Assembly (NCBI GenBank): GCA_027063545.1 | Contig: JAMORN010000064.1 | Coordinates: 1-8,356, forward strand | Length of the DNA stretch: 8,356 nt | DNA from: JAMORN01 sp027063545 [NCBI: bacterium] | Lineage (GTDB): Bacteria > JAMORN01 | Direction: 5' to 3' | In this document: one piece after another, positions 1,388-6,104 of the stretch | Layout of the letters: each line of letters begins with the position of its first letter | How positions within the stretch are numbered: the first letter of the stretch is position 1 | Notes under the pieces: generated by a model | The model's database searches: none | What the model saw: the letters and a program-made list of their open reading frames with translations, nothing else | Told to the model about the DNA's origin: nothing | Made by a program: the position numbers and the translations under genes

Positions 1388-1427
1388 AAAAAAATTGAGG
1401 TCTAACCTTTCTTTTAGATTAGACCTC
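1388..1427 (-). terminator. Intrinsic terminator of the pilin operon
   Basis: GAGGTCTAA (1397-1405) and TTAGACCTC (1419-1427) form a perfect 9-bp stem with a 13-base loop. On the minus strand the stem is followed, after AA, by seven T residues (plus-strand A run 1388-1394). It lies about 50 bases beyond the stop codon of the PilX-like gene. No comparable T run follows on the plus strand, so it acts leftwards only and separates the pilin operon from cstA. Confidence 0.88.
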
Positions 1428-1477: not shown

Positions 1478-3301
1478 CTAATAATATTTCGTAAGAAGCA
1501 TTATTTGAAGATCTGTTACTTTTTTAGTTTCTATTGTGGTATCTGCTACTGTTCCTCCAGAACTAGCAGCACTTCCAGTAATATCTACTAAAACACCTAA
1601 TGCCTCAAACTCCCCTAATACCGCTGGATCATATACTAAATTAAAAGTAGTAGAGGCTCCACTATTTATACCTACAGGTGTATCTCCTTTAAATATCATT
1701 GCGCCATAAAACGTTCCAGCAAAAGTATTATATTTTCCTCTATTTGATGTACTATCCCATACAAAACCCCTAAAATCTCCTTGGCCTCCAAAATTTTCTA
1801 ACTTCGCGCCATTTTTTACTATTATACCAACTCTTCCCTCCTCTTTAACATTCCAAAAATTGCTTCCTACATTTACATCTACAGGCTCATCCATAACAAA
1901 AATTATTTTTTTGCTAAAATCTCCATACTGAAAGTTCCCTATATCTTTATCTATTTTTACTACTAAAAATCCTCCATTATCATTCAAAGAACCATTAATA
2001 TGAAATGTCTTACCATTCAATGTGGCGACTCCATCATCTGCTAAATCTTCCCAAAAAGAAGGCCCAAAATTATTTTTTAAAGTATTATTATAAAAATTTG
2101 GATCTCCAGATTGTGCATCCAAATCAGATAAAGAAAAATTTATTGTTAAATTATCTATATTGGCACTTGCTTCTTCCTCTTCTTGAGTATCTATTCCTAT
2201 TTCATCAGGTGTAGGCACATCAATAGATGCATTATTTTCTGCAACCGCTCCATCAGTTAAAATTAAATATCCCTTATTATTAGACTCATCTGTTGCAAAT
2301 CTAACAACTCCTCCATCTTTTGTTAAAGTATTATTCCAATTTACCACATCAGTATTTATTTCTAATGTATCTCCATATGAAGTTATTGTACTCATATCAA
2401 AAGGATTCCCTCCAATATATCCATATTTCCTGAAAATTATAGAACCATTAAAACTTTTAAAACCACCTACTAAATATGCATTTGTTTTAAAATCTACTAA
2501 TACATCAACAATAACTTTCCCTCCTATATAAAAATATTGAGCTGTATCAGAAAGTGTTAATCCTGAATTTAATATAACATCTCCTGGAATGTAAACATTT
2601 CCTGTTATAGTTGTATTTTGATCTATTTTAATGTCATTTGTTTGATTTACAACTTTTACATCTCCATAAATTATAGAACCTTGATTAAAAGTAGCCTCCC
2701 CTTCACAATATATATCACCTTGAACATTCCAAGCGGGATCCATATGCTCTATAGGACCTTGAGAATAAAAAGCATGTCTTACAGCAGTACCTCTTAGACT
2801 ATTATTTGCTATTTTCATAAATGTATCCCAGCCCTCAATTCTATAAATAGCAAACATAGTCTTTTTAGAATTCTCTGGTCCATAACCTATAACCTTTACT
2901 TTTACTAATGAATTTGTTCTATCCACTTCCAATATTGCAAATTTAAATTTTTGAATATTAGAAAGCTGAACTTCTGTGGCTCCTAGTTCATTTGTAGTCC
3001 AAGCCCATGTAAAATCTCCAATATTACTTGAACCACTATACCATAAAGTATCACTAAAAGAAGACATCAGATTCATCATTTGATCAGGATTCTGATTTAC
3101 CAATTCTTTAAACCAATCTAAAGCACTTTCTGCTGCTTCTTCAGCTGTCTTTTTTTGATAAAAATCTCCTTGAATTTGTATATCTTTATTTGATAAATAT
3201 AATATAGTCCCCCCCAATAATAAACTTACAAATATAAATGTAAGTACTACCATTAAAACATAACCTTCTCTACTCTTAGTTCTCTGAAATATATTTTTCA
3301 T
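1478..3301 (-). CDS. Large PilX/GspK-like minor pilin with beta-rich passenger domain
   Basis: A 607-residue predicted minor (pseudo)pilin, third gene of the operon. The N-terminus has a basic leader ending REG (11-13), then a hydrophobic helix (about 14-36) and an amphipathic continuation with AEEAAESALDW (53-63), as in PilX N-terminal domains. Position +5 after the predicted cleavage site is Val rather than Glu, as in GspK, which caps the pseudopilus tip. Residues about 178-300 are rich in short beta strands with turns (QGDIYCEGEATF, GDVKVV, GNVYIPGDVIL), suggesting a beta-helix or bactofilin-like fold. After an acidic EEEE stretch (374-377), residues about 380-565 form a second beta-rich domain of the kind found at the C-terminus of some long PilX-like proteins. 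Ordinary PilX is about 200 residues, so this is greatly enlarged. ATG 3301 follows AGGGGG at an 8-base spacing, 22 bases after the previous stop. The pilin assignment is firm; the passenger's function is unknown. Confidence 0.88.
   Translation of the reverse strand: MKNIFQRTKSREGYVLMVVLTFIFVSLLLGGTILYLSNKDIQIQGDFYQKKTAEEAAESALDWFKELVNQNPDQMMNLMSSFSDTLWYSGSSNIGDFTWAWTTNELGATEVQLSNIQKFKFAILEVDRTNSLVKVKVIGYGPENSKKTMFAIYRIEGWDTFMKIANNSLRGTAVRHAFYSQGPIEHMDPAWNVQGDIYCEGEATFNQGSIIYGDVKVVNQTNDIKIDQNTTITGNVYIPGDVILNSGLTLSDTAQYFYIGGKVIVDVLVDFKTNAYLVGGFKSFNGSIIFRKYGYIGGNPFDMSTITSYGDTLEINTDVVNWNNTLTKDGGVVRFATDESNNKGYLILTDGAVAENNASIDVPTPDEIGIDTQEEEEASANIDNLTINFSLSDLDAQSGDPNFYNNTLKNNFGPSFWEDLADDGVATLNGKTFHINGSLNDNGGFLVVKIDKDIGNFQYGDFSKKIIFVMDEPVDVNVGSNFWNVKEEGRVGIIVKNGAKLENFGGQGDFRGFVWDSTSNRGKYNTFAGTFYGAMIFKGDTPVGINSGASTTFNLVYDPAVLGEFEALGVLVDITGSAASSGGTVADTTIETKKVTDLQIMLLTKYY
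3209..3215 (-). repeat. G7 homopolymer in the PilX-like gene
   Basis: Seven consecutive C on the plus strand (G on the coding strand) encode the two Gly at residues 30-31, inside the transmembrane helix. In an AT-rich sequence such tracts are rare; the only other one in the window is in the PilV-like gene. Gain or loss of one G would shift the frame after about 30 codons and abolish the protein. Confidence 0.6.
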
Positions 3302-3323: not shown

Positions 3324-5618
3324 TTATTTATTATAATTACTTAATGTTATCCCCACACCGCAATCAGGAATTGCTGAAAAAAATGTAAATTTAATATAAT
3401 GATGATCTGCTTGTGGTCCAATTAAAAATATATACCAATCAGGACCTCCTGTTGCAGATGAAATTAAAGTACCACTTCCATCTGGTGAATACCATTCTAC
3501 TTGTACTTTTGGTATTTGAGCACCATTACTATTAAATTCTATTTTCCAAAATGGATTCCAATAAGGGTTTCCTTCGCCTGGATAAGATTTAGCCCATACA
3601 TATAATTCATTGCTAGTATTTACATCTGTTGGATATATAATATACTCTGTATTACAATCCCACTCCCTACATTTACATTTATCCGAGCCATCAGCACCAA
3701 GATAATGATCCCATGTAGCACAACCTCCTCCACCACCTGCTATATCAAAATTCGCTGTAATATTCATATCTCTATTCATTACTATAGTTAAAGGATTATT
3801 AGTTGCTGTAGTATCTCCACTCCATCCGGAAAAAGTATAACCAGTGTTAGGAGTTGCAGTTATAGTAACAGATGTCCCTTTTTTATAAGTACCACTTGCT
3901 GGATCAACACTACCATAGCTAGCATCTGGAGATACTGTTACATTTAAACTATAGGCCGGACAACCATTATAGTCAGCTGTTCCTGGATCATTTGGACACT
4001 CATCACAAGCATCTCCTATTCCATCTCCATCTGTATCTTCTTGATTTGGATTAGCATCATTAGGACAATTATCGCAAAGATCCCCCACATCATCATTATC
4101 TGCATCAGCCTGATCAGCATTAGAAACATCAGCACAATTATCACACACATCACCTACCCCATCACCATCTGTATCTGTTTGATTAGGATCATAATCTTCA
4201 GGACAAACATCACAAGCATCTCCAATACCATCATTATCCTGATCCTCCTGATCTGGATTGGCTACATTAGAACAATTATCTGTAGAATCAGGAACTCCAT
4301 CATTATCAGCATCTGCAACTCCAATACTTCCTGAACCTGCCCCAGAAGTATCAGGAGACAATCCTGAAGAACTAATACCACTTCCTGATAAATCAGGTGT
4401 TACTCCATTTTGAGGCACAGGAATTACAATAGAGAATAATCTCCTTTCGAATTTATCATTAAATGCTAGCTGAATATTTCCTATTTTAAAAGTATCATTT
4501 AAAACCTTATTTAATTCTCTTCTTGTTCTAGCTAAAATTGAAACCTTTATTGCTCTTACAAATGGCTTTGCTGCACTCCAAGAGCTATAACCTAATTGAG
4601 ATAATGTAGTATCTTCTGTAATATATTTATTAAGTTCATCACCAACCCAGTAATATCTTCCCAAACTTTTCTCTACAACCACTATATCTTTCATATAAAA
4701 AGTAGGAGTTACCACATCATTATTGTTAAAAGTAAATCCTAAATACATATCTGCTGTGGTATCCGCTGTAAAATAGAAATCTATCTTAATAAAATTTGTA
4801 TCTAAATAATAAATAGATGCTATCTTCTTATAAAAACTTGCTGTTGTTGTCCATAATCCTAAACTTAAATCTTCATAAGTTGCACTAGAATCTTTATCAC
4901 TTAATTTATCTTTTGCTATATAAAATTTTACATAATACTTAGCACCTGCTTTTAATTTTAACACATTATTTGTATATAATATACTAGAACCATCTATGTA
5001 TTGTTTATAATTAATCTGTCCTGTAGAAGTAATTGTTAAATGCCCCTTTAAAGGATTCCAAAACCAATCACTTGAAACTGTAGAATTTCCTGTTTTTACC
5101 ATGGTATCATTAGATCCCAATATACCAAACTCTACTTGAAAAGCTTCAACATTTCTAACTAATGTGTAAGGAGTTCTGCCTTTATATGCATGCTTTATAG
5201 TTCTAGTTGCTGGATCATAATAAAAAGCCTCTGCTATAATAGTGTCTGGACTTCCATTCGAATTTAAACGTAAATATCTAATAGCTAAACTATCCCCTCT
5301 AGAAGCTTGTGTTGTAAAATCGTATTCTCTTACTTCAAAAGAGCTTCCATCAGATAAAACAACTCCTGGATATACCCCTTTTACTATTGTCCCAGCACTA
5401 TCATACATATAAGTTTTATAACCTGTATTTGATATTCTTTTTGCCAAAAAATTTATTGCATCTCTTGCATCCTCAACAGTAGTTTGAGAAATAGTTTGCT
5501 CCAAAAATCTCTTATTAGAATAAAAAAATGCTTGTAAAACAGCAGCTACCACTATAAAGGATAAAAAAGCATAAATTAAAAGTTCAATTAAAGTAACTCC
5601 TTTTTTAAATTTTTTCAT
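3324..5618 (-). CDS. Multidomain PilW/GspJ-like minor pilin with thrombospondin type 3 repeats
   Basis: A 764-residue predicted minor pilin, inner-membrane anchored before assembly and then extracellular. The leader MKKFKKG is followed by [20 protein letters not shown], a textbook prepilin peptidase site with Glu at +5. Residues 8 to about 175 and about 320-400 read as one PilW-type pilin domain ([11 protein letters not shown] at 157-166; [15 protein letters not shown] at 355-369). Between them lies a beta-rich insertion (about 180-318) resembling carbohydrate-binding modules. Then follow a Ser/Gly linker (about 409-433), five DxDxDG thrombospondin type 3 repeats (436-550), an InlB-type repeat (about 556-624, with [20 protein letters not shown] and GYTFSGW), a Gly5 linker (628-632) and an unrecognised C-terminal domain (633-764) with five Cys. 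Typical PilW proteins are roughly 200-350 residues. Its ATG overlaps the upstream stop as ATGA, with CAGGAG seven bases before it, indicating translational coupling. Pilin, TSP3 and InlB assignments are firm; a role as calcium-dependent tip adhesin is inference. Confidence 0.92.
3969..4313 (-). repeat. Five 69-bp units encoding thrombospondin type 3 calcium-binding repeats
   Basis: Codons 436-550 of the PilW-like gene hold five units beginning at residues 436, 459, 482, 505 and 528, an exact 23-residue period. Each has the acidic DxDxDG core (DADNDG, DQDNDG, DTDGDG, DADNDD, DTDGDG), which in thrombospondins co-ordinates calcium. Cysteines at 449/469, 472/492, 495/515 and 518/538 are each 20 residues apart, plus 541/553, matching sequential disulfides between neighbouring repeats. 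The fourth unit has Asp in place of the conserved core Gly. The repetitive DNA could recombine to change the repeat number. Confidence 0.93.
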
Positions 5619-6043
5619 CGTACAACTCCTGTGAGGGTTATGGTTTTCTTATTATAAGCACCAGTCCCCCCCTGATACCATTCTATAGTCACTGTTATTC
5701 TTTTAGCTATACTACTAGTTGATAAAGGAGTAATTTGAATTATTCTAATAAAAGTTTTTCCTGAAACTCTTACTGTATCAACAATAGGAGAGGTAGTAGC
5801 CTCAATACCCTCAGCTCCTATACCTCTATATGAAGCTATTGTTGATTTAGCTAAATCTGTAGCTAATTCTGTTCTATAACTCATTTCTATAAATTTATAT
5901 CCTGCAACCTCCATAAGGAGAGCTTGAGATAATGCCAAAGCGAAAATTACCATAGCCACTAAAAGCTCTAATAAAGAAGCTCCTTTTAATCTCTTATTTT
6001 TTATCTTATTACATAATATATTAAATCTCTCAGCCAAAAACAT
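5615..6043 (-). CDS. PilV/GspI-like minor pilin
   Basis: A small prepilin and the first gene of the operon. I place the start at ATG 6043, giving 142 residues. AAGGAGG (6051-6057) sits seven bases upstream of it, but only one base from the in-frame GTG at 6049. The leader of 21 residues ends KRLKG and is followed by [20 protein letters not shown]: prepilin peptidase site after Gly21, Glu at +5, and a hydrophobic helix at about 22-43. The remainder (about 44-142) is a short beta-rich globular domain of normal size for GspI or PilV. Its TGA overlaps the next gene's ATG by four bases (ATGA). Gene order and size suggest it nucleates a tip complex with the two larger pilins. A G7 tract lies at codons 125-126. 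Minor pilin is certain; the exact subfamily is inferred from position and size. Confidence 0.9.
5666..5672 (-). repeat. G7 homopolymer in the PilV-like gene
   Basis: Seven G on the coding strand encode Gly125-Gly126. Loss of one G leads to a TAA within about ten codons, and gain of one leads to a TAA within about five. Both stops fall before the ATGA overlap, so slippage would also uncouple translation of the PilW-like gene. The codon context (xxG GGG GGG ACT) is identical to that of the G7 tract in the PilX-like gene. Confidence 0.6.
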
Positions 6044-6050
6044 AAACACG

Positions 6051-6057
6051 CCTCCTT
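6051..6057 (-). promoter_or_regulatory. Ribosome binding site fixing the PilV-like start
   Basis: AAGGAGG on the minus strand is complementary to the 16S rRNA anti-SD. It is 7 bases from ATG 6043 but only 1 base from GTG 6049, so the shorter reading frame is the likely product. Confidence 0.8.
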
Positions 6058-6075: not shown

Positions 6076-6104
6076 ATTATAAATTTATATATATAGGAAT
6101 TCAA
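6076..6104 (-). promoter_or_regulatory. Sigma-70-type promoter of the pilin operon
   Basis: Minus strand: -35 TTGAAT (6099-6104), 17-base spacer, -10 TATAAT (6076-6081, perfect consensus). Predicted transcription start is near 6069, giving a short leader of about 26 bases that contains the SD at 6051-6057. The perfect -10 means the operon need not depend on read-through from the upstream tRNA gene. Confidence 0.72.

Follow-up and report, generated by a model that had tools for sequence, protein, structure and literature searches.

The window analysed here, which is a whole contig (C64) of 8,356 bases from a genome of 1.57 Mb in 355 contigs with a completeness of 82.7%, encodes on its minus strand a 764-aa protein which is an intact modular pilin of unusual make-up. 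According to Raynaud et al. (2021), a modular pilin consists of an N-terminal pilin module and one or more domains not specific to pilus biology. On this protein a class III prepilin signal stands on the same chain as TSP_3 and Flg_new_2 domains, both of them over their Pfam cut-offs. The fusion of effector modules to minor pilins has already been published, therefore the principle is not new; the combination of a prepilin signal with thrombospondin type 3 (TSP3) repeats on one protein looks rare, judging from the sequences compared.

Organisation of the gene and its surroundings

In the direction of transcription the minus strand carries a PilV/GspI-like gene, the 764-aa gene, a gene of a 607-aa protein and a CstA-like gene, while a tRNA-Met and, on the plus strand, the gene of an anaerobic ribonucleotide reductase are found at the other side. 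The features discussed below are the following.

6076..6104, minus strand: promoter-like site TTGAAT-17-TATAAT upstream of the operon (consensus scan, 10/12)
5615..6043, minus strand: PilV/GspI-like minor pilin gene, Glu+5 present, N_methyl over cut-off
3324..5618, minus strand: modular minor pilin gene coding for 764 aa, probably of PilW/GspJ type, with ATG as start and AGGAG 7 nt before it
5535..5618, minus strand: residues 1-28, with the class III prepilin signal and the beginning of alpha-1 (Glu+5; Pfam N_methyl)
5124..5618, minus strand: residues 1-165, the N-terminal portion of the pilin module, probably J type (hhalign; Pfam PilW)
4584..5105, minus strand: extra stretch inside the pilin module, residues ~172-345, absent at this size from eight shorter pilins
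4401..4571, minus strand: residues ~350-406, in which the pilin module has its C-terminal strands (MAFFT alignment with shorter pilins)
4317..4400, minus strand: Ser/Gly-rich linker, residues 407-434 (sequence)
3954..4316, minus strand: five TSP3 repeats, residues 435-555 (Pfam TSP_3; PDB thrombospondin-2, COMP)
3741..3944, minus strand: divergent InlB B-repeat, residues 559-626 (Pfam Flg_new_2, E 3.4e-17, over cut-off)
3327..3722, minus strand: C-terminal segment, residues 633-764 (132 residues), five cysteines, without significant relatives
1478..3301, minus strand: gene of the 607-aa protein in PilX/GspK position, start G/YVLMV, without Glu+5
1397..1427, minus strand: terminator-like hairpin and T-run after the last operon gene, where a terminator is expected

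The 764-aa gene probably belongs to a minor-pilin tip operon, because the stop codon of the PilV/GspI-like gene overlaps its ATG (ATGA) and because it precedes the gene of the GspK-like 607-aa protein, which has no Glu5. Such a position, with PilV (I) on one side and PilX (K) on the other, fits a J subunit; the labels of both neighbours are either below cut-off or positional: the product of 5615-6043 has weak ComGE, GspI and PilV matches, all below cut-off. Sites of the AGGAG type are found 5' of both the PilV-like and the 764-aa gene, and a gap of 22 bases separates the latter from the 607-aa gene, which is preceded by a G-rich stretch. As listed, the PilV-like frame starts at GTG 6049 (6047-6049); ATG 6043 (6041-6043) is a better fit to AGGAGG at 6051-6056, with a spacing of 7 nt. 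The promoter-like signal is weak, as 39 sites of this kind were counted against 31.6 (sd 6.2) in shuffles. The terminator-like hairpin is the single site found where 1.2 are expected by chance.

Prepilin signal and added modules

The open reading frame of the 764-aa protein contains no internal stops. Its N-terminus has a short basic leader ending in Gly, a hydrophobic stretch and Glu+5, and the Pfam family N_methyl (residues 4-28) reaches 17.7 bits in the protein scan, where the cut-off is 21.2, and 23.0 bits, over cut-off, in the genome scan. The class III prepilin signal described by the first-pass annotation is thus borne out.

The TSP3 stretch was matched by Pfam TSP_3 at E 4e-17, over cut-off, and when compared alone with PDB chains it gave thrombospondin-2 at E 1.7e-48 and COMP at E 8.2e-40. 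Five repeats begin at residues 436, 459, 482, 505 and 528 with an exact period of 23, although only four of them, and not five as had been annotated, contain DxDxDG, the fourth repeat reading DADNDD. The four DxDxDG motifs compare with a mean of 0.06 and a maximum of 3 in 10,000 shuffles of the whole protein. Together with these motifs, regular cysteines characteristic of thrombospondin type 3 repeats are present, ten in number (449/469, 472/492, 495/515, 518/538 and 541/553), spaced by 20 residues four times and by 12 once; by analogy with thrombospondin they would be paired in this order. From the sequence it can be supposed that the arm binds calcium, is stiff and takes part in adhesion. 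The TSP3 "wire" seen in structures of thrombospondins is curled and is not a straight rod.

The InlB-type repeat which follows was recognised correctly in the earlier annotation, and so was the novelty of the C-terminal domain, for which no significant relative appeared in Pfam, plasmids, IMG/VR, PDB or the 385 other genomes. Residues 627-764 used as a query brought up neither a plasmid nor, at E up to 10, a family of Pfam, gave no confirmed IMG/VR relative, found PDB chains only at E 0.87 and 1.3, and had one marginal match among the 385 genomes (G234, E 0.0076, with two in-frame TGA codons).

The base composition gives no sign of a chimaeric assembly of the gene, a possibility that was rejected: the added modules have a GC3 of 9.8-13.4%, close to the 12.9-15.6% of the pilin part and a little lower than the 14.3-18.6% of the other window genes measured. 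In total base composition the TSP3 stretch is richer in GC (39.9% versus 30.6%), as expected from its Asp/Gly content. A single-sequence structure model of the whole protein, with helices at 10-44 and 48-64 and strands thereafter, has a mean pLDDT of 37 and is too poor to use. Because this AlphaFold model is unusable, the assignment of the pilin fold rests on sequence.

Pilin module and its insert

By sequence comparison the pilin module can be assigned, probably but weakly, to the J (PilW/GspJ) type. With residues 1-434 as query, 10 of the 385 other genomes (11 of 386 with the source genome) gave matches at E 1e-3 or below. Eleven loci were fetched, of which L037 and L044 overlap and L035 and L042 were read over part of their frames, and at nine of them the matched frame bears a prepilin signal; by eye, several lie beside other pilin-like genes. 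Among these nine relatives one protein is of ~460 aa and eight are of 160-319 aa. Compared with the profile of the eight J-like pilins, residues 1-201 gave an hhalign probability of 97.3 and E 1.6e-11 (one comparison), and residues ~350-406 align with them in the MAFFT multiple alignment, though residues 341-410 alone are not significant in hhalign. Pfam PilW itself matches at E 9.9e-5, below cut-off, over 27 residues only (148-174). The J label is weakened by the yardstick pilins, since none of the eight has a PilW match in Pfam, where N_methyl is their sole pilin-family match, and the GspJ or ComGF models match five of the eight, all below cut-off. One J-like pilin of another genome (L036:1093-1731, minus strand) contains an EF-hand-like loop (EF-hand_5, 28.6 bits against a cut-off of 25.9), which is another calcium-type motif on a minor pilin.

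The PilW core proposed previously is retained as a probable J-type pilin module with sub-cut-off PilW scores, and it had been overlooked that this module includes a stretch of ~170 residues (172-345) which the eight shorter pilins lack. This insert is probably beta-rich according to the low-confidence model, in which its strands are seen. It has no credible Pfam family, the only hit being HTH_micro at E 0.01, below cut-off, and a carbohydrate-binding jelly-roll suggested by eye was dropped for lack of a credible Pfam match. Homology with the internal stretch of long pilins from another phylum (best match G089) is likewise not claimed, for the profile score was 14.8 and the best of 100 shuffles reached 20.8. 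The insert position in pilins of this kind looks alike; the sequence similarity is within chance.

The long-pilin family to which the ~460-aa relative belongs (L045-L074) was matched at 1e-3 in 110 of the 167 genomes of the phylum of G089, the weakest of these matches perhaps through the N-terminus alone, with one to four matches per genome, some of them split. The family has a large internal stretch; the 28 members read are of 436-507 aa, and invariant Cys, Trp and Pro positions were noticed in the 26 that were aligned. The profile of these 26 found 13 PDB chains at E up to 1, twelve of them at the pilin N-terminus and one chance-like.

Occurrence of prepilins with TSP3 repeats

TSP3 repeats were found in 39 of 386 genomes, the source genome included. 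A partial sample of 80 other TSP3 places in 32 genomes was taken, 75 by hand from the genome-scan listing and 5 from the whole-protein search; outside it lie the window's own rows, a place at a contig start (G187:C4), rows of G064, G066, G091, G127, G149, G207 and G264, further rows of the genome scan, and further TSP3 places from the whole-protein search. A frame start was found in 77 of the 80 (two of them, L148 and L154, with 100 masked bases nearby) and a prepilin signal with acidic +5 in none; the prepilin test covered 150 residues counted from the stop codon that precedes the frame, and later starts could be missed. Four places fitted a loose pattern, which the window also passes, and the acidic +5 residue was present in none of them. 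By eye, many of these proteins start with lipoprotein- or secretory-type signals. No prepilin match was seen in L002, L003, L004-L009 and L022, several of which have no visible start. Within this sample a prepilin joined to TSP3 looks rare.

Matches to the whole 764-aa protein came from 18 of 58 other genomes, and those listed lie within residues 416-632 (TSP3 or InlB-type); the contig search of genomes gave two loci with best segments 423-549 and 421-571, that is in the TSP3 part. No relatives were found in viral contigs. In G033 some short lipoprotein-like frames (L180-L182; ~200-310 aa), two of which lie near each other on the same contig, have TSP3-like matches close to their N-terminus.

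In the literature searched there was no description of TSP3 or thrombospondin repeats together with a pilin. The published survey of modular pilins reports 264 architectures (PMC8179133), a list which lay outside the scope of that search, and the architecture described here may already be within it.

Pilus machinery of the genome

The phylum of the source bacterium was represented by a single genome in the set searched. Two PilT-family ATPases are over the TIGR01420 cut-off. One is accompanied by a PilC/GspF-like protein below the equivalog cut-offs; the second gene (L031, G000:C126) lies, by eye, beside EF-P, biotin carboxyl carrier and biotin carboxylase genes. The PilB/GspE ATPase is present as a C-terminal fragment. 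Beyond the two prepilins of the operon the genome scan detected one GspH/FimT-like prepilin, whose nearest named models include GspH, below cut-off, and one sub-threshold match; no major pilin was identified.

PilY1 was not found in the genome (83% complete), which agrees with the first-pass annotation, and the beta-propeller PF05567 is absent from the Pfam matches of the 764-aa protein; in 14 control genomes the PilY1 family was matched in one and over cut-off in none. A secretin was not found in the 83%-complete genome either, while the same search was positive in 6 of the 14 controls. At this completeness either protein could be missing by chance. That no secretin was matched despite PilT-type motors may reflect either a genome gap or a single-membrane envelope, and with no secretin found the passage of so large a subunit through the envelope is puzzling.

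Possible role of the protein

The reading we prefer, to which a probability of about 0.55 is given, is that the 764-aa protein serves as J subunit in the minor-pilin complex at the tip of a retractable type IV pilus and that its arm carries a C-terminal binding domain. On this reading, which is built from the sequence, prepilin peptidase would cut the protein after Gly7 and alpha-1 would dock into the minor-pilin complex that starts the fibre. The arm, composed of the Ser/Gly linker, the disulfide- and calcium-ordered TSP3 repeats and the InlB-type repeat, would carry the C-terminal domain outwards, where this domain, possibly with the insert of the pilin module, would bind a ligand on a surface or in a matrix, and retraction powered by PilT would pull the cell. 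The J identity, the cleavage at Gly7 and the tip position are presumed throughout. In the order of the Myxococcus xanthus model (PMC13190605), PilA - FimU - PilW - PilV - PilX - PilY1, PilW is not outermost, thus a module borne by PilW needs to reach past PilV and PilX, which would explain a long arm. A more tentative extension, whose odds we put well short of even, takes the J subunit itself as the tip adhesin where PilY1 is missing: its TSP3 arm, locked by disulfides, ordered by calcium and made of five repeats of equal length, would bear a new binding domain past I and K, a second module would sit in the pilin fold, the tip would be a calcium-gated single chain and the number of repeats would set its reach. 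The calcium-repeat arm extends the set of parts known from pilus subunits, and it does so in a genome where no PilY1 was found. If the proposal is true, calcium dependence at the pilus tip arises on the pilin itself and reach, as repeat number, becomes a testable variable.

The neighbouring 607-aa protein may say more about the function of the pilus than the 764-aa protein does. K subunits without Glu+5 are known (published). In Pfam the 607-aa protein matches neither N_methyl nor PilX, and ComGG matches at E 0.023, below cut-off; weak matches (E 3.1e-5 and 2.9e-4) were found in 2 of 58 other genomes. Its large size, its start without Glu+5 and the short regular strands at ~192-278 of a poor single-sequence model (mean pLDDT 39), in which a beta-solenoid is possible as a weak suggestion, speak for a tip belonging to a DNA-uptake (competence) pilus like that of Thermus, with a ComZ-like 607-aa protein and with the modules of the 764-aa protein helping to hold DNA or matrix. 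ComZ is reported to be a beta-solenoid inserted in a GspK-like pilin that binds the GspI-like PilA2 and DNA (PMC6561018). It occupies the 2nd and 9th places among the 91 Foldseek matches of the 607-aa model, but the best of the 91 has E 0.99 and none reaches 0.001, and ComZ itself has E 1.6 and 3.2 and TM-scores of 0.12 and 0.10, hence with such a model this is a lead only. Moreover, the TSP3 repeats of the 764-aa protein are acidic, and neither TSP3 nor InlB-type repeats are known as DNA binders. A competence pilus is accordingly regarded as unlikely.

The same repeats may be read otherwise, as a calcium switch or a flexible tether: loss of calcium would loosen the array or expose it to protease and so release or turn the tip, somewhat like PilY1. 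The thrombospondin-like calcium motifs and the regular cysteines of the five repeats are compatible with such a role, and in several species the calcium sites of PilY1 matter for retraction, motility and adhesion (PMC13190605); nevertheless, the spacing of 20 between the cysteines in four of the five supposed pairs favours a stiffened array, and the switch appears decidedly unlikely. It might also be argued that the protein is a pseudopilin of a type II secretion-like system, or a prepilin retained in the membrane and displaying its modules on the cell surface, as the minor I, J and K subunits are common to type II secretion systems and type IV pili, the secretin was not found and the genome scan identified no major pilin. 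The two PilT-family ATPases over cut-off point instead to a retractile pilus, and type II secretion systems have no known PilT; this last explanation is very improbable.

Comparison with known systems

The closest published parallels are PilB (vWA) and PilC (Ig-like and ConA-like lectin) of Streptococcus sanguinis, which are described with a class III signal, an N-terminal pilin module and one or more C-terminal effectors (PMC8179133, PMC9934059). They are minor subunits modelled at the tip, without PilY1; the 764-aa protein shares the arrangement of signal, pilin module and added C-terminal domains, would likewise be a tip subunit, and no PilY1 was found in its genome. The 764-aa protein differs from them in its TSP3 repeats, InlB-type repeat, unclassified domain and pilin-module insert, and its binding function is a predicted one. 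The claim of the first-pass annotation that the adhesin is covalently part of the minor pilin stands as far as the TSP3, InlB-type and putatively adhesive C-terminal parts are on one chain with it, the general design having been published before. ComZ of Thermus thermophilus shares a large module within a minor-pilin fold and a gene beside a GspI-like pilin (PilA2); it is, however, GspK-like, a beta-solenoid and DNA-binding, and if anything it resembles the 607-aa neighbour (PMC6561018).

With the PilY1/PilC tip adhesin the protein has in common a putative calcium-binding motif, a probable place at the minor-pilin tip and a supposed role, whereas PilY1, as described, is a non-pilin with a C-terminal beta-propeller (PF05567). 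The TSP3 arrays of thrombospondin-2 and COMP show the same DxDxDG and DNC...NPDQ motifs and the same cysteine pattern. Thrombospondins have a longer, mixed TSP3 array adjoining a lectin-like domain; unlike these arrays, the 764-aa protein is built with five repeats of one 23-residue type.
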